Part shown: positions 25,665 through 33,551 of the stretch, piece by piece
Position numbering within the stretch: the first letter of the stretch is position 1
Layout: each line of letters starts with the position of its first letter
Source of the DNA: Cryobacterium lactosi
GTDB taxonomy: Bacteria > Actinomycetota > Actinomycetes > Actinomycetales > Microbacteriaceae
Reading direction: 5' to 3'
NCBI RefSeq assembly: GCF_004403945.1
Contig: NZ_SOHM01000002.1
Span: forward strand, 62,001-126,000
DNA length: 64,000 nt
Notes under the pieces: model-generated
Database searches by the model: none
What the model saw: the letters and a program-made list of their open reading frames with translations, nothing else
What the model was told of the DNA's origin: nothing
Program-made: the position numbers and the translations under genes

Positions 25665-26552
25665 ATGACCCTGCCATTCACGTTGCTCATCGACCCGGAG
25701 CCGGCCGACTCCACCCGCACTGATTTCGTGGAGACCTTCCACGAGATCGATTCCGGCGCCCCCGCGTTGCGGGTGGCTGAGCTGAGCACCCAGCGCGGCG
25801 ATGGCATCTTCGAGACCCTCAGCGTGGTCAACGGGCATCCGCAGGAGGTCGAACCGCACATCAACCGGCTGATCAACTCGGCGCAGATCTGCGACCTGCC
25901 CGTACCCAACCCCGCCCAGTGGCGGGCCGCGATCGCCTACGCCGTCGACCGCATCCCCGGCGAGGGCGAACTGGCGCTCAAGTTCGTGCTCAGCCGCGGC
26001 GTCGAGCACGGGCCGGCGCCCACCGCCTGGCTGCACGCCACACGCGCGGCGGACTTCAGCGCGGTGCGTGAGAACGGCATCAAGGTGATCACGCTCGACC
26101 GGGGCTACCCGCGCGGCGTCGCCGAGCAGGCGCCCTGGCTGCTGATGGGCGCCAAGACCCTCAGCTACGCGATCAACATGGCGGCCCTGCGCGAGGCCAA
26201 GCGCCGCGGCGCCGACGACACCATCTTCCTCACCCACGACGGTTACGTCATGGAGGGCCCCACCTCCAGCGTGATCCTGCGCATCGACGGCCGGTACATC
26301 ACCCCGGCGCCGAGCGGCGCCATCCTGCACGGCACCACCCAGCAGAGCGTGTTCGAGTACCTCACCGCGCACGGTGAGAGCGTCGAGTACCGTGACGTCA
26401 CCATCGACGAGCTGCGGGCGGCGGATGCGGCGTGGCTGGTCTCCAGCGTGCGCCTCGCCGTCGCTGTGACCGCCCTGGACGGCGTGGAGTTCCCGCACGA
26501 CACCGAGCTCACCCGCGCCCTGAACGCGTCCCTGCTGGCCCGCACCGCCTAG
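25665..26552 (+). CDS. pabC: Aminodeoxychorismate lyase, class IV PLP aminotransferase fold
   Basis: A 295-residue fold-type IV PLP enzyme, most like 4-amino-4-deoxychorismate lyase, which forms p-aminobenzoate for folate. Family blocks: TQRGDGIFETLSVVNGHPQE, the PLP lysine in LLMGAKTLSYAINMAALREA, and the phosphate-binding VMEGPTSSVIL with GTTQQSVFEYL. Other class IV members (branched-chain or D-amino acid aminotransferases) are possible, but the RxDGIFET start and GAKTLSY favour PabC. It is apparently transcribed alone from a leaderless promoter. Confidence 0.88.
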   Translation: MTLPFTLLIDPEPADSTRTDFVETFHEIDSGAPALRVAELSTQRGDGIFETLSVVNGHPQEVEPHINRLINSAQICDLPVPNPAQWRAAIAYAVDRIPGEGELALKFVLSRGVEHGPAPTAWLHATRAADFSAVRENGIKVITLDRGYPRGVAEQAPWLLMGAKTLSYAINMAALREAKRRGADDTIFLTHDGYVMEGPTSSVILRIDGRYITPAPSGAILHGTTQQSVFEYLTAHGESVEYRDVTIDELRAADAAWLVSSVRLAVAVTALDGVEFPHDTELTRALNASLLARTA

Positions 26553-26830
26553 TTCTGCCCGGCCGTGGCGGCTCTGGCGATGGCAGTCGCCGCGGCCGCC
26601 CGTGCCCGGATGTCGTCGAACTGGCCGCGAGCCAGAGTCGACCGGCTTGCGATCCAACTGCAGCCAGCCGAGAACACCGCGGGGTGGGCGAGATAGTCGC
26701 CGAGATTCTCCGTCGACACGCCGCCGCTCGGCATGAACCGCACCCCGGGAAACGGCCCGGTCAGCGCGTCGATCAGTGCGAGTCCGCCCAGGGCGGTGGC
26801 CGCCGTGCCCGTGGCCGGGGGAGTCGTCAC
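26549..26830 (-). pseudogene. Truncated KDPG/KHG aldolase fragment, coupled to the IclR gene
   Basis: Its 93 codons encode only the C-terminal half of a KDPG/KHG aldolase: LGGLALIDALTGPFPGVRFM, PSGGVSTENLGDYLAHPAVF and SAGCSWIASRSTLARGQFDD match the family, but the N-terminal half, with the catalytic Glu and the Schiff-base Lys before the FPA motif, is missing. A GTG at 26830 overlaps the IclR stop (GTGA), so the fragment may still be translated by coupling. A complete aldolase of the same family lies in the divergent operon (32665-33291). It is most simply a remnant of an iclR-eda operon after an internal deletion. Confidence 0.75.
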
Positions 26831-27543
26831 AGTCGGCGAGAGATCTCGTCGGCGGCGTCGATGACCGGTCGGCCCATTGCTGCGAGCTCGGCGGGGTCGA
26901 GAACGAACACGAGTGAGCTGACGCAGACCGCCGCCACCGGATAGCCGTTGTTGTCGAGCACGGCAGCGGCGACCGAGCACAGCGAGGGGTCGGCACCGCC
27001 GTGGTCGATGGCGAAGCCCGCATCGCGGACCCTGGCCAGGTCGTCTGCGAGATCACGGGTGGCGGCGTCCCCGATCAGGTGGTCCCGCTCGTCGTCGGGG
27101 AGAAAAGCCAGCATCGCTTTGCCTGCGGCCGAGGTGAACAGCGGAAGCTGCGAGCCGACATCCGGCGCGATGCTGTAGGACAGTTTTGGATCCACCTTGT
27201 GGGTGTAGACGACGGCTTCACCGCTGAGGACGGCAAGGAAGACCGCGTGCTGGGTGGAGCGTTGCAGGCCTGTCAGTGTGGCTTCGATGCCGGACCCGCT
27301 GTGTCCCTCCATGCCCGCCGCGAGCACCCGGAGACCATTGCCTGGTTGGTAGAAACCGTCACCCGTGGGCTCGATGTAGCTCTCGTCGGCAAGGATCGTG
27401 AGGATGCGATGCACACTCGATTTCGGCATCCCTGTGGCGTCGGCGATGTCGCCCAGGCGCAGTGGATCGTGCGACTGCGCGAGCAGTGACAGCATCCGCA
27501 ATGCCTTGGAGATGGCGTTTTGCGAGGAATCGACCGTCTTCAT
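26827..27543 (-). CDS. IclR-family transcriptional regulator
   Basis: A 238-residue regulator: winged helix at residues about 5-65 (ALRMLSLLAQSHDPLRLGDI, GMPKSSVHRILTILADESYI), then the IclR effector domain (FTSAAGKAMLAFLPDDERDH, GFAIDHGGADPSLCSVAAAV). The ATG at 27543 gives a natural N-terminus; upstream in-frame codons lie in the divergent promoter. It faces the metallohydrolase/DgaE operon and most likely controls it, with the substrate or a catabolic intermediate (perhaps a 2-keto-3-deoxy acid) as effector. That is an inference from position. Confidence 0.92.
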   Translation of the reverse strand: MKTVDSSQNAISKALRMLSLLAQSHDPLRLGDIADATGMPKSSVHRILTILADESYIEPTGDGFYQPGNGLRVLAAGMEGHSGSGIEATLTGLQRSTQHAVFLAVLSGEAVVYTHKVDPKLSYSIAPDVGSQLPLFTSAAGKAMLAFLPDDERDHLIGDAATRDLADDLARVRDAGFAIDHGGADPSLCSVAAAVLDNNGYPVAAVCVSSLVFVLDPAELAAMGRPVIDAADEISRRL

Positions 27544-27573
27544 TTTTATCTTCGCCTCGCTTGATGTCTGTGC

Positions 27574-27622
27574 TAGGTTTTCAGGAATCTTAAGTGGAAC
27601 GCCATTCAGTATTGCGGAACGC
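27574..27622 (+). promoter_or_regulatory. Candidate promoter and IclR operator of the DgaE-type operon
   Basis: An extended -10 (TG-c-TAGGTT, hexamer 27574-27579) would start transcription near 27586. Just downstream are two direct GGAACGC words (27596-27602 and 27616-27622) with an ATTCAG/TATTGC core between them, placed where a repressor could block the promoter. The region is AT-richer than its surroundings. The assignment is tentative. Confidence 0.4.
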
Positions 27623-27694
27623 GAGAGAAAATGCACGTCTCATTCAAGGGTGTTTGGGCACATCACGCCGAGGCACCTGGTCGAAAGGTAATCC

Positions 27695-28852
27695 ATGACG
27701 CCCCCAGCAGTGCCTCAATTCGACACCTCCATCTGGGGTGGCGCGGTCATGAATGCAACAACGGGCCTGCCTGTGCCGGCGACGATCGCCATACGGGACG
27801 GTCTCATCGCGGGCGTCTTCTCGGCCGACCACCGCGTCGAGGCAACGGCCACGATCGATGCCCGGGGCCTGCTGGTCACGGCCGGTCTGATCGACCTGCA
27901 CGCCCACGTGTTCCGCCAGTCCACCGACCTGGCCGTCGATGCGGACCGGATCGGGGTCGACCAGGGTGTCACCACCATCGTCGACGCCGGCAGCACGGGA
28001 GCTGTCGACTTCGCCGACTTCCGCGCCCACGTCATCGAACCGGCCGCGACCCGCGTCTACTCGTTCATCAACATCTCCGACACCGGTCTCACCGCCGGCC
28101 GCACCGAGCTCAGTCGCATGGAGGATGTGGGGACGCCGGCTCTGCATCGGCTCTTGGGTCAGGAGGCGCACCGTTCCATCCGGGGAATCAAGGCCCGGAT
28201 GAGCGCATCCGTGGTCGGAGCAAACGGCATCGAGCCGCTCCGCGTCGCCCGACGGTTCGCCAGTGAGTTTTCCCTACCGGTGATGGTGCACGTCGGGACC
28301 GAGCCTCCCGTCTACGCCGATGTCTTGGACCTGCTCGTCGAAGGCGATGTGGTCAGCCACGCCTTCCATGGCAAACGCGGCGGACTGTTCGGCGGGGGAT
28401 CCCGCATCGACCCGGCCGCGTTACGGGCCCGCGACCGCGGAGTGCTCTTCGATGTCGGCCACGGCAGCGCCAGCTTCTCCTTCGAGACGCTCGAACGGGC
28501 GTTGGTGGCTGGCTTCGCCCCTGACTTGGCCAGCACCGACCTGCACACCGAGAATGTGGACGGACCCGTGCACAGCCTGGTCACCACGCTCAACAAACTC
28601 CTCGCTGTCGGCCTACCGCTGGACCTCGTCCTCGGCTACGCCACGGCCAACGCGGCCGCCGTCCTCGGTGAGAGCGCCACCCTCGGATCCGTACAGATCG
28701 GCAAGGTCGCCGACATCAGCCTCCTGCACGTCGGCGACGGCAGCGCCGAACTCACCGACTCCCAGGGGGCTACCCGTCGGGCCGGCCTCACCCTGGCCGC
28801 GCGGGGAGCGATCCGGGCCGGTGTCCTGCAGCGGCAGGGGGCGATCTTGTGA
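27695..28852 (+). CDS. Amidohydrolase/deacetylase-family metallohydrolase (EF_0837-like)
   Basis: A 385-residue amidohydrolase-superfamily enzyme, related to dihydroorotases and deacetylases. The metal-binding strand LIDLHAHVFRQSTD (His-x-His) is near residue 65-70, followed by VDQGVTTIVDAGS, MVHVGTEPP, VSHAFHGKRGGLFGG and the C-terminal ASTDLHTENV with the catalytic Asp region. It is most like the probable amidohydrolase of the EF_0829-0839 cluster. It likely deacylates or opens a ring in the substrate before the PLP lyase step; the substrate is unknown. It is the first gene of the operon, with GAAAGG ahead of ATG, and overlaps the PRD gene by 4 nt. Confidence 0.88.
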   Translation: MTPPAVPQFDTSIWGGAVMNATTGLPVPATIAIRDGLIAGVFSADHRVEATATIDARGLLVTAGLIDLHAHVFRQSTDLAVDADRIGVDQGVTTIVDAGSTGAVDFADFRAHVIEPAATRVYSFINISDTGLTAGRTELSRMEDVGTPALHRLLGQEAHRSIRGIKARMSASVVGANGIEPLRVARRFASEFSLPVMVHVGTEPPVYADVLDLLVEGDVVSHAFHGKRGGLFGGGSRIDPAALRARDRGVLFDVGHGSASFSFETLERALVAGFAPDLASTDLHTENVDGPVHSLVTTLNKLLAVGLPLDLVLGYATANAAAVLGESATLGSVQIGKVADISLLHVGDGSAELTDSQGATRRAGLTLAARGAIRAGVLQRQGAIL

Positions 28853-29217
28853 GCAGCGCGACCGCCGTTGCCCTTGAGGCGCTCTCCACCAGCATGGCCG
28901 TGACAAGCACCGACCGCTCTGACATAGCCGACATCATCACCGCGGTCGAGGTCGTTCTCACCGACTCGGGGTATTCCCTCAGCGCTGACCGCAGACTCGC
29001 ACTCGCCGCACACGCCCTGGCGTTCAGTCGCCGGATCCGCACAGGCGAACAGCTTCCGGAAATCGACCTACACGATTTTCCGGAGATACCCGAAAAGACC
29101 GTCGACGCCCTGCGCAACGCCCTGAACCCGTATTGCGCGACTCACGACAGCGAGCTCACCGACGAGGAGGTCCTGCTCTTCGCCATGCATGTCGAAATCG
29201 CTCGCATCGCACCCTGA
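28849..29217 (+). CDS. PRD-domain protein (EF_0829-like)
   Basis: A 122-residue protein consisting of one PTS-regulation-domain-like helical bundle. Conserved histidines lie at residue 55 (LALAAHALAFSRRIRTGE) and residue 114 (LLFAMHVEIARIAP), the positions that are phosphorylated by HPr or EIIB in PRD antiterminators and activators. There is no RNA- or DNA-binding domain, so it is a stand-alone module. GTG at 28849 overlaps the previous stop (GTGA). With an HPr-like protein at the end of the operon, it suggests phosphorylation-dependent control. Confidence 0.78.
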   Translation: MSSATAVALEALSTSMAVTSTDRSDIADIITAVEVVLTDSGYSLSADRRLALAAHALAFSRRIRTGEQLPEIDLHDFPEIPEKTVDALRNALNPYCATHDSELTDEEVLLFAMHVEIARIAP

Positions 29218-29270
29218 ACCACCGTGCTCTTCCCCCTTGAACAATCGTGACTACCACTGGAGAAATTCTT

Positions 29271-29672
29271 ATGTCAGATCTGCGCTCGCCGGGCTCCTCG
29301 GGACCGGCCTCTCTCACTATCGTCATCGGACACCGCCTCGGCAAAGGCCAACAAGTCGCCACCGGTGTGGAGGCCGCAGGGGTCAGGGTGGTCCTGATAC
29401 CCGGCCCAGCCGGCGACATGCGTGTCGGCGACGTCATGGACGCAGAGGGCGCCGACCTCGGCATCAGCTTCTGTGGCAGCGGCGGCGCCGGAGCAGTGAC
29501 CGCCAAATCGAAGTACGGCTATGAAATCGAGTTCAACATGCGATCGGCGGATGCCGGCGTGACGGCCGTCCAAACGGGCAAGCAAGTGCTGGGCTTCGGC
29601 TTCCTCGACACCGAGGAGCTGGGGTTTCGGATCGCCACGGCGCTGATCAAGAAGCGGGAGGCAACGTCGTGA
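29271..29672 (+). CDS. Glycine-rich SFCGS-family protein (DUF2620-like)
   Basis: A 133-residue soluble protein of the glycine-rich SFCGS family (EF_0831-type cluster component), function unknown. The signature ISFCGSGGAGAVTAKSKYGY places Cys68 in a Gly-rich loop after a beta strand. The first strand LTIVIGHRLGKGQQVATGVE looks like the start of an alpha/beta fold. The layout recalls PTS EIIB proteins, where a Cys after strand 1 carries the phosphate, but here the Cys is on a later strand; this is only an idea. The ATG at 29271 has a TGGAG site 8 nt upstream. It overlaps the next gene by 4 nt. Confidence 0.82.
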   Translation: MSDLRSPGSSGPASLTIVIGHRLGKGQQVATGVEAAGVRVVLIPGPAGDMRVGDVMDAEGADLGISFCGSGGAGAVTAKSKYGYEIEFNMRSADAGVTAVQTGKQVLGFGFLDTEELGFRIATALIKKREATS

Positions 29673-30004
29673 AGACAGAAACCGTCACCACGAGCATCGT
29701 CGGAAAGGGCGACACCAAGGAGCGCGCCCTCTCGGATGTGTTCCGCCAGGTTCCCCAGAGTGTGCGCGAAAAGGTTCCAGGAACGTGCTTCCGCATCCAG
29801 CCCGTCGGGGTCGAGGTGAGCAAGGCCGTCGAGTTCTCCAAACGGGAGAAATTCCTCGGGGTCCTATTCGCCCGCACGCGAATCGAATTCAGCATCACAG
29901 CCGTGGTCGTCGTCGAAGTCAGCTTCATCGACCTCGATGACGTCGCATTCACGCTCACCCACGAGGCCCTGACTGTGCCCCAGCACCTGCTCCAGCTCCG
30001 ATGA
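29669..30004 (+). CDS. DUF4312 family protein
   Basis: A 111-residue soluble protein of the DUF4312 family (EF_0830-type), known only as part of this gene cluster. Characteristic stretches are VTTSIVGKGDTKERALSDVF, SVREKVPGTCFRIQPVGVEV and EKFLGVLFARTRIEFSITAV. It has a ferredoxin-like alternation of strands and helices by eye. GTG at 29669 overlaps the SFCGS stop (GTGA). It probably forms a complex with the SFCGS protein and the two membrane proteins that follow. Confidence 0.85.
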   Translation: MKTETVTTSIVGKGDTKERALSDVFRQVPQSVREKVPGTCFRIQPVGVEVSKAVEFSKREKFLGVLFARTRIEFSITAVVVVEVSFIDLDDVAFTLTHEALTVPQHLLQLR

Positions 30005-30032
30005 TCCGCGACAACGAAACCGGGTACCGCTC

Positions 30033-30824
30033 ATGAGCGAATGGCTTGTCATCCTGTCCAGCTCGTTGATCATCGGCGCGCTCTGCGGCTTCGGCGCTGG
30101 GGCAGGCGTCGCCCGCATGTTTCACGCTCCCAAGGTGCAGGGCGCGGGCGCATTTCGAACCCTCGGCGAGCTGAACGCCTGCGAAAACGACCCCATCGCG
30201 CATGGCTCGTTCGGCCTGGGGTTCTTCTTCAACTCCTGGGCCACCGTCGTCGGCTCCGGCGCGCTGACCGGCGATGTCGACCACCGGATCATCCCGCACT
30301 GGGCAGCAGCACTGTCGCTCTGGCGCAATAAGAACCTCGACGAAACCCTGCACAATCCCCGACGCATGGCCTGGCTCGGTGCGATCGTCGGCGCCGTGCT
30401 CGTCGCCTTCCTCAACTCCACAGCGACCGCGGTCCCGGAAGGGCTCAGGTCGGTGGCAGGAGCGGTATTGGGTCCGGCATCCGCCTGGTTGCTGAACCCG
30501 GTGATGCCCGCGATCTTCTGGCTCGCCGCCATCGACGCAGGCCGTCGCGCCGGCGCATGGGGAACGGTGCTCGGCGGACTCGCTCACATGGTGTTCGGTA
30601 ACGCCGTGCCCGGGATCGTGCTCGGCATCGTCATCGCCAAGGGCGTCGACGATCTCGGCTGGACCAGGGTCACCCGGTCGATCACCGTCGCCGTCGCCCT
30701 GCTGTTCGTCGTCAGCGGCTTCCTACGCGGAGTCGACGTGACGCTTCTCACCCAACTGAACCTCAGCATTCCCGACTGGCTGGCCGAATTGCACAGGGTC
30801 ACCGGAACCGGCCCGTCGAAGTAG
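30033..30824 (+). CDS. DUF4311 family membrane protein
   Basis: A 263-residue polytopic membrane protein with about six to seven hydrophobic segments. It shows the DUF4311 (EF_0833-type) hallmarks ARMFHAPKVQGAGAFRTLGE, LNACENDPIAHGSFGLGFFF, NSWATVVGSGALTGDV and GGLAHMVFGNAVPGIVLGIV. Glu, Asn and His in the loop between the first two segments are conserved-looking and could line a substrate path. It is thought to be one half of an uncharacterised transporter together with the DUF4310 protein. It starts 28 nt after the DUF4312 gene. Confidence 0.87.
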   Translation: MSEWLVILSSSLIIGALCGFGAGAGVARMFHAPKVQGAGAFRTLGELNACENDPIAHGSFGLGFFFNSWATVVGSGALTGDVDHRIIPHWAAALSLWRNKNLDETLHNPRRMAWLGAIVGAVLVAFLNSTATAVPEGLRSVAGAVLGPASAWLLNPVMPAIFWLAAIDAGRRAGAWGTVLGGLAHMVFGNAVPGIVLGIVIAKGVDDLGWTRVTRSITVAVALLFVVSGFLRGVDVTLLTQLNLSIPDWLAELHRVTGTGPSK

Positions 30825-30833
30825 GGATAAATC

Positions 30834-31526
30834 ATGGCAATCGATACACGAATCACTCGCAAGGAAAAACTTCAGCCGTGGCAGGGAGGATTCTGGCTCT
30901 CGGAGCTGGCCTTCCCCATCTTCATCGCCGCCCTGTGTGCCGGGGTGTTCGCCGGCACGCACATGTTCTACGTCTACGGCACCGGCCTGTTCAACGAGAT
31001 CGCCATCGGCGCGCTGCTTCAGCAGGGTTTCGACGGCAACGGATACGGCGCAGCCGCCGCTTTCGGGGCCGGCTTCATGCTCGCCCGCATCATCGAGGGG
31101 CCGATGGTCGGCATCCTCGACATCGGCGGATCCATCCAAACCGGGGTCGGTATCGGCATCCCAGCGATGCTCATGTCGGTCGGGATCACCGCTCCGTTGG
31201 AGAACTTCTGGCTGGCCCTGGCGGTGGGAGCCGTGATCGGGCTGGGGATGGGCTTCCTCATCCTGTCCATTCGCAAGGCAACCGTGGCGTCCAGCGGTGC
31301 GCAGAGCACCTTCGGCGCTGACGTGATGATGGGCGCAGGCAACGCCGCGGGCCGCTATCTCGGCCCGCTGATCATCCTCGCGGCCGGCTCCGCGTCCCTG
31401 CCGGTGGGGATTGGCGCTCTCATCGGTGCCGGCCTCTTCTACTGGTGGAAGAAGCCTCTGGCCGGAGGCGCCATCCTTGGCGCGATGGCGGCCGGCGCCT
31501 TCTTCTCCATTCAGATTCCCGCATGA
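30834..31526 (+). CDS. DUF4310 family membrane protein
   Basis: A 230-residue polytopic membrane protein of the DUF4310 (EF_0832-type) family. Strong family stretches are FMLARIIEGPMVGILDIGGS, IQTGVGIGIPAMLMSVGITA and STFGADVMMGAGNAAGRYLG. The many Gly residues in membrane helices and the charged ARIIEG and GADVMMG segments suggest a permease. It lies 9 nt after DUF4311 and runs into the PLP-lyase gene, so the putative transporter and the catabolic enzymes share one transcript. Confidence 0.87.
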   Translation: MAIDTRITRKEKLQPWQGGFWLSELAFPIFIAALCAGVFAGTHMFYVYGTGLFNEIAIGALLQQGFDGNGYGAAAAFGAGFMLARIIEGPMVGILDIGGSIQTGVGIGIPAMLMSVGITAPLENFWLALAVGAVIGLGMGFLILSIRKATVASSGAQSTFGADVMMGAGNAAGRYLGPLIILAAGSASLPVGIGALIGAGLFYWWKKPLAGGAILGAMAAGAFFSIQIPA

Positions 31527-31546
31527 CAACGAACGGAACAGCACGT

Positions 31547-32668
31547 ATGAGTATTTACAGTGACCTGGGCCTCGAGCCCGCGATCAACGCGAGCGGAAAG
31601 ATGACGGCCCTCGGTGGCAGCGTGCTGGCCCGTGAAGTGACGGAGGCGATGGCCGCCGCTGGTCGGGAGCACGTCGTGATCGCCGACCTCATGGTGGAAG
31701 CCGGCCGGTGGATCGCCGGTGTGGTGGGCACCGAGGACGCCTGCGTGTCCAGCGGAGCGTCCTCGGGCGTGGCCATCGCGGTCGCCTCCCTCATCGCGGG
31801 CACCGACAAACATCTCATCCAGGGACTTCCCGGCCGGGTGGGTCGACCCTTCGAGGTGGTGATTCAGAAGGGGCATTCGGTGGACTTCGGCGCACCGATC
31901 ACCCAGATGATCGCGCTGGGCGGCGGCCAGGCCGTGGAGGCCGGGTCGGTCAACCGGGTCGAGGTGTCCGACCTCCGCGGGGCGATCGGTCCGGACACGG
32001 CCGCCGTGATGTTCGTGCAATCGCACCACACGGTTCACAAGGGCATGGTCTCGCTCGAGGAGACGATCCGAGTCGCGCATGAGCGCGGCATCCCCGTGAT
32101 CCTGGACGCCGCCGCCGAGGACGACCTGCAACGGTGGGCATTGTCCGGCGCCGACATCGTCGTGTTCAGCGGCGGAAAGGCCATCGGCGGACCGACCTCC
32201 GGCATCCTCTGCGGCAGCCGGGAACTGATGACGGCCGCCCGCGCCCAGTACGCCGGAATCGCCCGGCCCATGAAGGTGGGAAAGGAACAGGTGATGGGGC
32301 TCATCGCCGCCCTCACCCTCGGCGGCGTGAGCGACACTGACGCACGCGCCGAGGGTGAGGGGCAGCGGGCACGGATGCAGGCGCTCGCCACCCGCCTCGC
32401 CGAACACCCGGGCATCGACGCGTTCGTCGAGCAGGACGATGCCGGGCGGCAGATCTTCCGCACCGTCTTCACCGTGCGACCCGAGTCGGGAACGACCGCG
32501 CCCCGCGTCGCGGCCGCGCTGGCGTCCAGCCACCCGCCTATGTACCTGCGCGACAACAAGGCAGCAGCCGGGCAACTCGCCCTCGACCCCCGCCCGCTCT
32601 CGGCGGACGAGGAGATCATCCTGCTCGATCGGCTCGACGACATCTTGAGCGCGGCGGCAGCGGCATGA
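31547..32668 (+). CDS. DgaE-like PLP-dependent ammonia-lyase (SelA-related family)
   Basis: A 373-residue fold-type I PLP enzyme of the SelA-related family that includes Salmonella DgaE, which converts D-glucosaminate-6-phosphate to 2-keto-3-deoxy-6-phosphogluconate and ammonia. The N-terminus GLEPAINASGKMTALGGSVL is typical; the PLP lysine is K211 in VVFSGGKAIGGPTSGILCG; HHTVHKGMVSLEETIRVAHE precedes it. The ATG at 31547 matches family N-termini; an ATG at 31523, overlapping the DUF4310 stop (ATGA), is the alternative and adds 8 residues. Its product would feed the KDPG aldolase encoded next. Confidence 0.88.
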   Translation: MSIYSDLGLEPAINASGKMTALGGSVLAREVTEAMAAAGREHVVIADLMVEAGRWIAGVVGTEDACVSSGASSGVAIAVASLIAGTDKHLIQGLPGRVGRPFEVVIQKGHSVDFGAPITQMIALGGGQAVEAGSVNRVEVSDLRGAIGPDTAAVMFVQSHHTVHKGMVSLEETIRVAHERGIPVILDAAAEDDLQRWALSGADIVVFSGGKAIGGPTSGILCGSRELMTAARAQYAGIARPMKVGKEQVMGLIAALTLGGVSDTDARAEGEGQRARMQALATRLAEHPGIDAFVEQDDAGRQIFRTVFTVRPESGTTAPRVAAALASSHPPMYLRDNKAAAGQLALDPRPLSADEEIILLDRLDDILSAAAAA

Positions 32669-33291
32669 GGGCACTTGGCATCGAGCAGACCGTCGCCCGG
32701 ATCCGGGCTGGCCGGGTGACGCCGACGGTCAGGGCGGCCGACGCGACCCAGGCTGATGCGTGGGCGCGGCAGATCGGTGCCGGTGGCATTCACACCTTCG
32801 AATTCACTGCCACCACCCCAGGCTGGGAGGACGTGCTTCGACACTGGAGCGCGTCAGAACCGGACGCCACCGTCGGGCTGGGCACGGTCACCACCGCCGA
32901 GACCGCAGAACGTGCGATCAGCGCGGGCGCCGCCTTCCTCGTGAGCCCCTTCGCCGTACCCGAGGCGCGTGCGGTCGCCGACCGCGCCGGCATCCTCTTC
33001 ATCGAGGGCGGGTTCAGCCCGAATGAGATCAGGGCAGCAGCGGCACACGGTGTGGCCAAGCTGTTCCCCGCCAACATCGGCGGCATCGGCTACCTCAAGA
33101 CGTTGCTCTCGGTGCTGCCGGGCGCCCAGATCACGGCCACCGGTGGCATTTCACTGAGCGAGGCAGGCGACTGGCTCGCGGCCGGCGCGCTGGCGGTGAG
33201 CATCGGAAGCGACCTGTTCACCCAGCCGGACATCGCCCAAGCGAGCCGAACCCTCCTGGACTCCCTTCGATCGAGCGAGAGGACGGCATGA
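32665..33291 (+). CDS. KDPG (2-dehydro-3-deoxy-6-phosphogluconate) aldolase family protein
   Basis: A 208-residue class I aldolase of the Eda family. It splits 2-keto-3-deoxy-6-phosphogluconate-like acids into pyruvate and glyceraldehyde-3-phosphate. Visible motifs: the catalytic Glu at 46 (HTFEFTATTPG), the phosphate or pyruvate loop VGLGTVTTAETAERA, the Schiff-base lysine K132 in HGVAKLFPANIGGIGYL, and ITATGGISLSEAGDWL. In relatives of this operon the aldolase is often of a different (DgaF/DUF1341) family, so an Eda-type enzyme here is a substitution. It overlaps the PLP-lyase gene by 4 nt. Confidence 0.88.
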   Translation: MRALGIEQTVARIRAGRVTPTVRAADATQADAWARQIGAGGIHTFEFTATTPGWEDVLRHWSASEPDATVGLGTVTTAETAERAISAGAAFLVSPFAVPEARAVADRAGILFIEGGFSPNEIRAAAAHGVAKLFPANIGGIGYLKTLLSVLPGAQITATGGISLSEAGDWLAAGALAVSIGSDLFTQPDIAQASRTLLDSLRSSERTA

Positions 33292-33551
33292 ACGGCGAAC
33301 GCCTCGTGACGATCAACCGGGATCACGGGCTCCACGCCCGCCCTGCACTCGAGCTGGTTAATGTGGTCAGGGCGTCCGGTCTCTCCGTCACGATCGCCAG
33401 CGGCGGGCGGTCGCCGGTGGATGCCGGGAGCTTGTTGGCCGTGATGGCGCAGGGCTTCTCCCAGGGCACCGAGGTGACCCTGGCGGCCACCGGTGAAGGG
33501 TGCGACGCGACCCTTCAGCTCGCGGCCGAGATTCTGGCCGCCACCGATTGA
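33288..33551 (+). CDS. HPr-family phosphocarrier protein
   Basis: An 87-residue HPr-like protein. The phosphorylation site is intact: His16 in RDHGLHARPALEL. The regulatory serine position also appears present, Ser48 in VDAGSLLAVMAQGFSQGTEV. In PTS systems HPr takes phosphate from enzyme I and passes it to EIIA domains or PRDs. No EI or EIIA gene lies in this window, so EI would be encoded elsewhere. As the last gene of the operon (overlap of 4 nt with the aldolase gene), it probably serves this system specifically, perhaps phosphorylating the PRD protein. Confidence 0.9.
   Translation: MNGERLVTINRDHGLHARPALELVNVVRASGLSVTIASGGRSPVDAGSLLAVMAQGFSQGTEVTLAATGEGCDATLQLAAEILAATD

Follow-up and report, generated by a model that had tools for sequence, protein, structure and literature searches.

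A five-gene module in Cryobacterium lactosi as a possible PTS-dependent permease for an amino sugar acid

The phosphoenolpyruvate (PEP)-dependent phosphotransferase system (PTS) is described by a fixed set of Enzyme II (EII) classes, seven in the transporter classification. Among the systems closest to the locus studied here is the Dga system of Salmonella, for which excerpts of the source report a mannose-type PTS (DgaABCD), the lyase DgaE, and the aldolase DgaF (PMC9529869). Excerpts on the Ong pathway for the oxidised chitin sugar GlcNAc1A describe deacetylation, pyridoxal phosphate (PLP)-dependent deamination, and 2-keto-3-deoxygluconate-6-phosphate (KDG-6-P), with import by a sodium symporter and phosphorylation by KdgK after deamination (PMC9537276). 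Closest in gene content is the EF_0829-EF_0839 or AHA_3910-type gene group, already present in NCBIfam as hypothetical families (TIGR03577-TIGR03583). A sequence-only reading of the DNA examined here had described this group as known but functionally unassigned, in line with the NCBIfam models for EF_0829 to EF_0833 and EF_0837, and no paper on DUF4310, DUF4311, DUF4312, SFCGS, or the module that they form was found in the open-licence library searched. In an E. faecalis transposon sequencing study, EF0839 is mentioned as possibly serving amino sugars (PMC7701990). Here, we describe an operon of this kind in a 64,000-nucleotide stretch of Cryobacterium lactosi (contig NZ_SOHM01000002.1, positions 62,001 to 126,000; hereafter the window). 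It comprises nine genes, all on the + strand at 27695-33551, five of which form the module in question, coding for a stand-alone PRD, SFCGS, DUF4312, DUF4311, and DUF4310. The joint presence of these five families places the operon in the EF_0829-EF_0839 group, with the PRD and DUF4312 scoring under their NCBIfam cut-offs.

We propose, with a probability of roughly 45%, that the five-gene module is an as yet unrecognised kind of PTS-dependent permease, which phosphorylates the substrate it imports. The proposal draws on computed gene content, residue conservation, a fold prediction for SFCGS, the phosphate site of the lyase, the PTS partners, and the absence of a kinase and of the classical EII proteins searched for. 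In particular, PTS dependence of the module is suggested by adjoining genes for HPr and Enzyme I (EI), conserved PRD histidines, phosphate-site arginines retained in the associated lyase, and the lack of a kinase. The sequence-only reading had instead cast the module as a non-PTS replacement, and on this point the same four lines of evidence point the other way. Its view of the SFCGS and DUF genes as a transporter-like module, within a single operon for uptake and catabolism, is borne out by our analysis. From these features we infer a relay, group translocation, and a substrate as follows. Phosphate would pass from PEP to EI, encoded elsewhere in the genome, then to the operon's own HPr and on to a conserved PRD histidine. 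From there, perhaps by way of the invariant cysteine of the RpiB-fold SFCGS, it would reach the substrate that DUF4311 and DUF4310, the two membrane proteins, carry. The cargo would be a 6-phosphorylated, N-acylated 2-amino-2-deoxy sugar acid, which the metallohydrolase would deacylate and the DgaE-type lyase deaminate to a 2-keto-3-deoxy-6-phospho sugar acid; the KDPG aldolase would then split this product into pyruvate and glyceraldehyde-3-phosphate. Lyase and aldolase fit the D-glucosaminate-6-phosphate scheme suggested earlier.

The module is highly constant in composition. A DUF4311 scan of GTDB contigs provided 79 loci, taken from the best 80 of 458 confirmed and ranked by similarity to the window; together with four records from a plasmid collection and the window itself, they make up a comparison of 84 loci. 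All five genes are present in 82 of these DUF4311-gathered loci (PRD, SFCGS, and DUF4311 in 84 each, DUF4312 and DUF4310 in 83 each). The metallohydrolase accompanies them in 79 loci, the lyase in 78, DgaF in 59, and Eda in 7, and further partners are a BglG-type regulator (71 loci), a PfkB kinase (3), and a classical EIIC (3). The gene order recurs across Actinomycetota, Bacillota, and Pseudomonadota, which argues that the operon is not a chance arrangement, and DUF4311 remains about 60% identical across phyla. Close to home the locus is rare: with the own genome counted, DUF4310 is found in 1 of 100 near relatives, and of 396 genomes sampled from the phylum, 1 has a DUF4311 match above the cut-off. 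One Brevibacillus locus (L034) carries two module copies side by side.

A lyase match is absent from six of the 84 loci (L006, L021, L048, L049, L076, and L080), of which L048 stops at a contig edge and L006 is irregular; the genomes of L049 (G506) and L080 (G523) encode the lyase elsewhere. In L021, L049, L076, and L080, a PTS-type regulator accompanies the five genes with no lyase, aldolase, or hydrolase match nearby, and L021 and L076 also carry HPr. Because the five genes and a regulator occur without catabolic genes in these four loci, we regard the module as a unit of its own, to which the stand-alone PRD belongs. The sequence-only reading had named the finding of the DUF genes in many genomes without lyase and aldolase as evidence against its proposal; such loci do occur, but they are uncommon, as the six lyase-less cases illustrate.

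Links to the PTS are found among these loci. HPr is encoded on the module strand in 30 of the 84, including all 11 actinobacterial ones (a further match in L006, on the opposite strand, was left out of the count), compared with an expectation of 0.017 HPr genes per 20 kb at the density of the own genome (four HPr genes in 4.66 Mb). The motif G-[LIM]-H-[AS]-R-P is intact in all 31 strong HPr domains found. In the window, the HPr-family phosphocarrier is the last gene of the operon (33288..33551, +; PF00381 63.2 bits, above cut-off) and has the motif GLHARPA. Nine loci contain a full-length EI, and EI is present in 40 of 41 module genomes. Gene fusions were also found: an HPr-Enzyme I fusion lies beside the module on a Bartonella plasmid (L004, 8047-10062), where the BglG-type regulator carries an EIIA_2 domain, and a fusion of HPr with the lyase is present in Amycolatopsis (L083, 11497-12885; domains checked by Pfam). 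Lyase and HPr matches share one open reading frame in L032 (11315-13081) and L041 (10542-12965).

Candidate phosphorylation sites stand out in two of the module proteins. In 85 aligned module PRDs, only His39, Arg46, Glu91, and His98 reach 93% conservation, each at 100%. All four are present in the window PRD (28849..29217, +), a proposed histidine-phosphorylated subunit whose family matches are weak and below both cut-offs (TIGR03582 32.5 vs 69.35; PF00874 20.7 vs 23). The glycine-rich SFCGS protein (29271..29672, +, with an alternative GTG start at 29247; TIGR03577 170 bits) keeps Cys54 within the loop FCGSGGAGA in 85 of 85 sequences and is our candidate cysteine carrier. Its AF2 model (pLDDT 90.9) finds RpiB as its structure matches, so that SFCGS is predicted to adopt the ribose-5-phosphate isomerase B (RpiB/LacAB) fold; PDB profile searches returned three weak, unrelated matches for SFCGS and none for DUF4312. 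The DUF4312 protein (29669..30004, +) lies above its Pfam cut-off (PF14189 66.8 bits vs 27) and below that of NCBIfam (63.7 vs 89.65); among 49 aligned sequences P45, A53, E60, and R69 are invariant, and there is no invariant histidine or cysteine. DUF4311 (30033..30824, +; TIGR03580 377.8 bits) and DUF4310 (30834..31526, +; TIGR03579 287.4 bits) are polytopic membrane proteins with four and five strongly hydrophobic stretches, respectively, and the AF2 model of DUF4311 is helical (pLDDT 79.5). SFCGS, DUF4311, and DUF4310 each pass both the NCBIfam and the Pfam cut-offs. Profile comparison detected no relation between DUF4311 and DUF4310, which is a weak test given shallow alignments (Neff below 3).

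The lyase suggests that its substrate is phosphorylated. In D-glucosaminate-6-phosphate lyase, the phosphate-site arginines are Arg301, Arg332, and Arg346, according to excerpts of PMC9529869. When the PLP-dependent ammonia lyase of the window (31523..32668, +) is aligned to the Salmonella enzyme (PDB 7lc0), the equivalents of all three are kept, as are those of His162, His163, and the PLP lysine. Across the 78 module lyases, the phosphate-site arginines are retained in 76-77, the remainder being gaps. As the window protein falls just under the TIGR01437 cut-off (380.6 vs 385.3 bits), we refer to it as DgaE-like; against the DGL equivalog NF047797 it scores 337 vs 600. The PDB entry 8t7j, a 'putative selenocysteine synthase' to which the window lyase was also aligned, scores higher against it (312 bits) than 7lc0 (263 bits) and likewise keeps the three phosphate-site arginines.

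For a sample that was not selected by the module, we collected lyase genes with the family model, fetched about 19 kb around 87 of them, and classified the surroundings on the lyase strand. Of 10 over-cut-off Bacillota places, 9 entered the sample (the tenth being that of L022 itself), together with 40 of 82 from Lactobacillales and 38 of 44 from Enterobacterales, chosen by hand in list order. Loci L146 and L147, which scored below cut-off, were excluded. The module accompanies the lyase in 56 of these loci and a mannose-type PTS in 7, while 24 have neither. Among the 56 module loci, 47 lack both a PfkB kinase and every EII searched for, one has a Gut-type EII, and eight combine an EIIC-MupG block with the kinase; the kinase search was confined to PfkB, from a single seed, and the search for other transporters to EII types. 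The sequence-only reading had asked whether the unknown genes co-occur without mannose-type EII genes, and in this survey EIIC/EIID of that type are near the lyase in none of the 56. The seven mannose-PTS loci contain no kinase, module, or metallohydrolase. In contrast, 21 of the 24 loci with neither system encode a PfkB kinase, 12 of them together with an EIIC; the other three are L237, with the lyase only, and L280 (on a 4.3-kb contig) and L287, each with part of a module. This contrast is consistent with phosphate supply by the module, albeit with exceptions, shared ancestry among the loci, and a search for only one kinase family. Since the loci are not independent, the Fisher value of 5.6e-10 and the binomial values are descriptive only. 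The window operon itself encodes neither a kinase nor a classical EII.

A separate observation concerns the kinase-bearing loci: in L005 (11623-18338) and the Lactobacillales loci of this survey, a block of EIIC, MupG (6-phospho-N-acetylmuramidase), metallohydrolase, lyase, DgaF, and PfkB kinase recurs with or without the module and perhaps represents a muramic-acid-related route.

Several findings weigh against a phosphorylating permease. The proposed phosphorylation slots are not cleanly exclusive, as 12 non-module loci have both EIIC and kinase and eight module loci have all three. No kinase was found in any of the 38 Enterobacterales loci, so that the contrast rests on Bacillota, where 8 of 22 module loci have the kinase, compared with 21 of 22 loci that lack both the module and a mannose PTS. 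HPr is near only 2 of the 56 lyase-found module loci (Lactobacillales, Enterobacterales, and a few other Bacillota); the operon HPr is thus bound to certain lineages and not typical of the module everywhere. One genome (G526, locus L086) has an intact module whose PRD retains both histidines and neither EI nor HPr in its possibly incomplete assembly. In the lyase, the carboxylate-site Arg226 is replaced by serine in the window, with an arginine adjacent, and this column is variable among the 78 lyases (Lys in 47, Arg in 21, Ser in 7); hence, the exact substrate may differ. Because SFCGS matches an isomerase fold, its cysteine could instead serve as a catalytic base or be a leftover. DUF4311 had no PDB match of note (Foldseek and VIA searches gave nothing usable), and the module proteins showed no sequence relation to single E. 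coli EII sequences, a weak test. EIIB and EIIC folds did not appear in the fold-search lists of SFCGS and DUF4311 either, which does not prove that a relation is lacking. Finally, the established role of PRDs is regulatory.

The chief rival, which we consider rather unlikely, builds on several of these points. In it, the module is a non-phosphorylating transporter, secondary or channel-like; the PTS would act on its activity or expression by means of the PRD, and a kinase encoded elsewhere would carry out the phosphorylation. The regulatory role of PRDs in known proteins, the lack of relation to known EIIs, the minority of loci with an operon HPr, and the single module genome in which neither EI nor HPr was found would all suit such a transporter. 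It accounts less readily for a lyase phosphate site that is kept while PfkB occurs in only 3 of 84 and 8 of 56 module loci, as against 21 of 24 without module or mannose PTS, or for SFCGS and its cysteine being as constant as the membrane proteins.

Less probable still is a catabolic role for SFCGS, with its RpiB fold, and perhaps for DUF4312, for example in an isomerase or epimerase step, which would leave transport to DUF4311 and DUF4310 alone. The predicted fold would agree with this, but both proteins stay with the membrane genes in the four loci that have no lyase, aldolase, or hydrolase match nearby, and both are missing from the kinase-type and mannose-type lyase loci. That the module is a membrane sensor controlling the BglG-type regulator, which is indeed present in 71 of 84 loci and sometimes without the rest of the pathway, is very improbable, given that actinobacterial loci have IclR instead with no BglG match and that 47 lyase-found module loci would be left without a mannose-type or other EII searched for, other transporter classes lying outside the search.

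A chitin-derived substrate, N-acetyl-D-glucosaminate (GlcNAc1A), was considered on the basis of the Ong pathway and set aside, as co-occurrence with the lytic polysaccharide monooxygenase (LPMO) family LPMO_10 gives no support. Of 37 module genomes identified via the loci, 17 encode this family. It was found in neither the own genome (0/1) nor its genus-mates (0/16), and among Enterobacterales it occurs in 2 of 10 that carry the module and in 7 of 14 that lack the lyase.

Returning to the phosphorylating permease, a parallel that speaks for it is the yhf operon of E. coli MG1655 and Cetobacterium, in which a stand-alone PRD (YhfY) is encoded together with the small YhfU (DUF2620) and the membrane protein YhfT. 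The module PRD is related to YhfY (hhalign probability 97) and SFCGS to YhfU (P 2.4e-5 over 99 columns, with cysteine aligned on cysteine); the first histidine, the arginine, and the glutamate of YhfY and the cysteine of YhfU are invariant in 8 of 8 sequences. The two systems differ in that the second PRD histidine is absent in yhf, the other enzymes are not the same, and YhfT is a single membrane protein with no detectable relation to DUF4311 or DUF4310. The nine yhf loci examined contained no HPr or EI match. The idea that YhfT is a fused DUF4311-DUF4310 was dropped, as profile comparison gave nothing; these comparisons of YhfT, DUF4311, and DUF4310 are weak because of the same shallow alignments. 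DUF4311 also gave a sub-threshold signal in E. coli. With about one chance in three, the module might represent a further PTS permease class, in which the PRD takes the part of EIIA, the RpiB-fold SFCGS with its invariant cysteine that of EIIB, and DUF4311 and DUF4310 that of EIIC/EIID; yhf would then be another branch of this design whose membrane part is unrelated.

The layout of the window operon agrees with the earlier description of nine adjacent genes, mostly with 4-nt overlaps or short gaps, in both coordinates and strand. The first gene encodes an amidohydrolase/deacetylase-family metallohydrolase (EF_0837-like; 27695..28852, +; NF006689 383.3 bits vs a cut-off of 371), whose relatives of known structure are 2ogj, 8wzy, and 2ics. 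It overlaps the PRD gene by 4 nt, as do SFCGS and DUF4312, DUF4310 and the lyase (whose ATG at 31523 overlaps the DUF4310 stop), lyase and aldolase, and aldolase and HPr. Gaps of 28 nt and 9 nt separate DUF4312 from DUF4311 and DUF4311 from DUF4310, and the gap from PRD to SFCGS is 29 nt to the GTG at 29247 or 53 nt to the ATG at 29271. The aldolase (32665..33291, +) passes the PF01081 family score (98.5 bits) and aligns to a KDPG aldolase chain at the glutamate and lysine pair of KDPG/KHG aldolases. Gene families are as previously named, except that the aldolase is of the Eda type rather than DgaF, the PRD and DUF4312 are divergent, and the lyase lies marginally short of its family model. Upstream, and counted as part of the operon neighbourhood, an IclR-family regulator gene is divergently oriented (26827..27636, -; PF01614 1.2e-23, PF09339 2.2e-14); IclR matches occur in 8 of the 84 loci, all actinobacterial. 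Beside it lies a remnant of a second KDPG aldolase (26552-26980, -), limited to the C-terminal third (PF01081 positions 130-194 of 196, E 1.3e-14).

If the module is indeed a phosphorylating permease, the set of Enzymes II would change through a class that combines a PRD with an isomerase fold, and four Pfam families (SFCGS, DUF4310, DUF4311, and DUF4312) would gain a function. For PRDs, a direct role in phosphate relay would be suggested in addition to regulation, and the yhf stretch of E. coli K-12 would become testable.

Compared with the EF_0829-EF_0839 group, the window operon shares the five module families, the metallohydrolase, and the DgaE-type lyase, and differs in that Eda and IclR stand where the group has DgaF and BglG and in encoding an HPr of its own. 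With the Salmonella Dga system it has in common a DgaE-family lyase with the phosphate-site arginines and the aldolase chemistry on a 6-phospho-keto-deoxy sugar acid; here, however, the module replaces the mannose PTS, and a metallohydrolase is present in 56 of 56 module loci versus 0 of 7 mannose-PTS loci. The Ong pathway resembles the proposed scheme in deacetylation, PLP-dependent deamination, and KDG-6-P, but differs in the phosphorylation step and the importer. Like RpiB/LacAB isomerases, SFCGS has the predicted fold and a cysteine in a glycine-rich loop; it differs in its length of about 120 residues and is not known to have isomerase activity. Classical Enzymes II resemble the module in their EI and HPr partners, PRD regulators, candidate histidine and cysteine sites, and the lack of a separate kinase in most loci, whereas the module has no detectable sequence relation to the tested E. 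coli Man, Gat, Ula, Chb, and Gut proteins, and the predicted fold of SFCGS is of the RpiB rather than the EIIB type.

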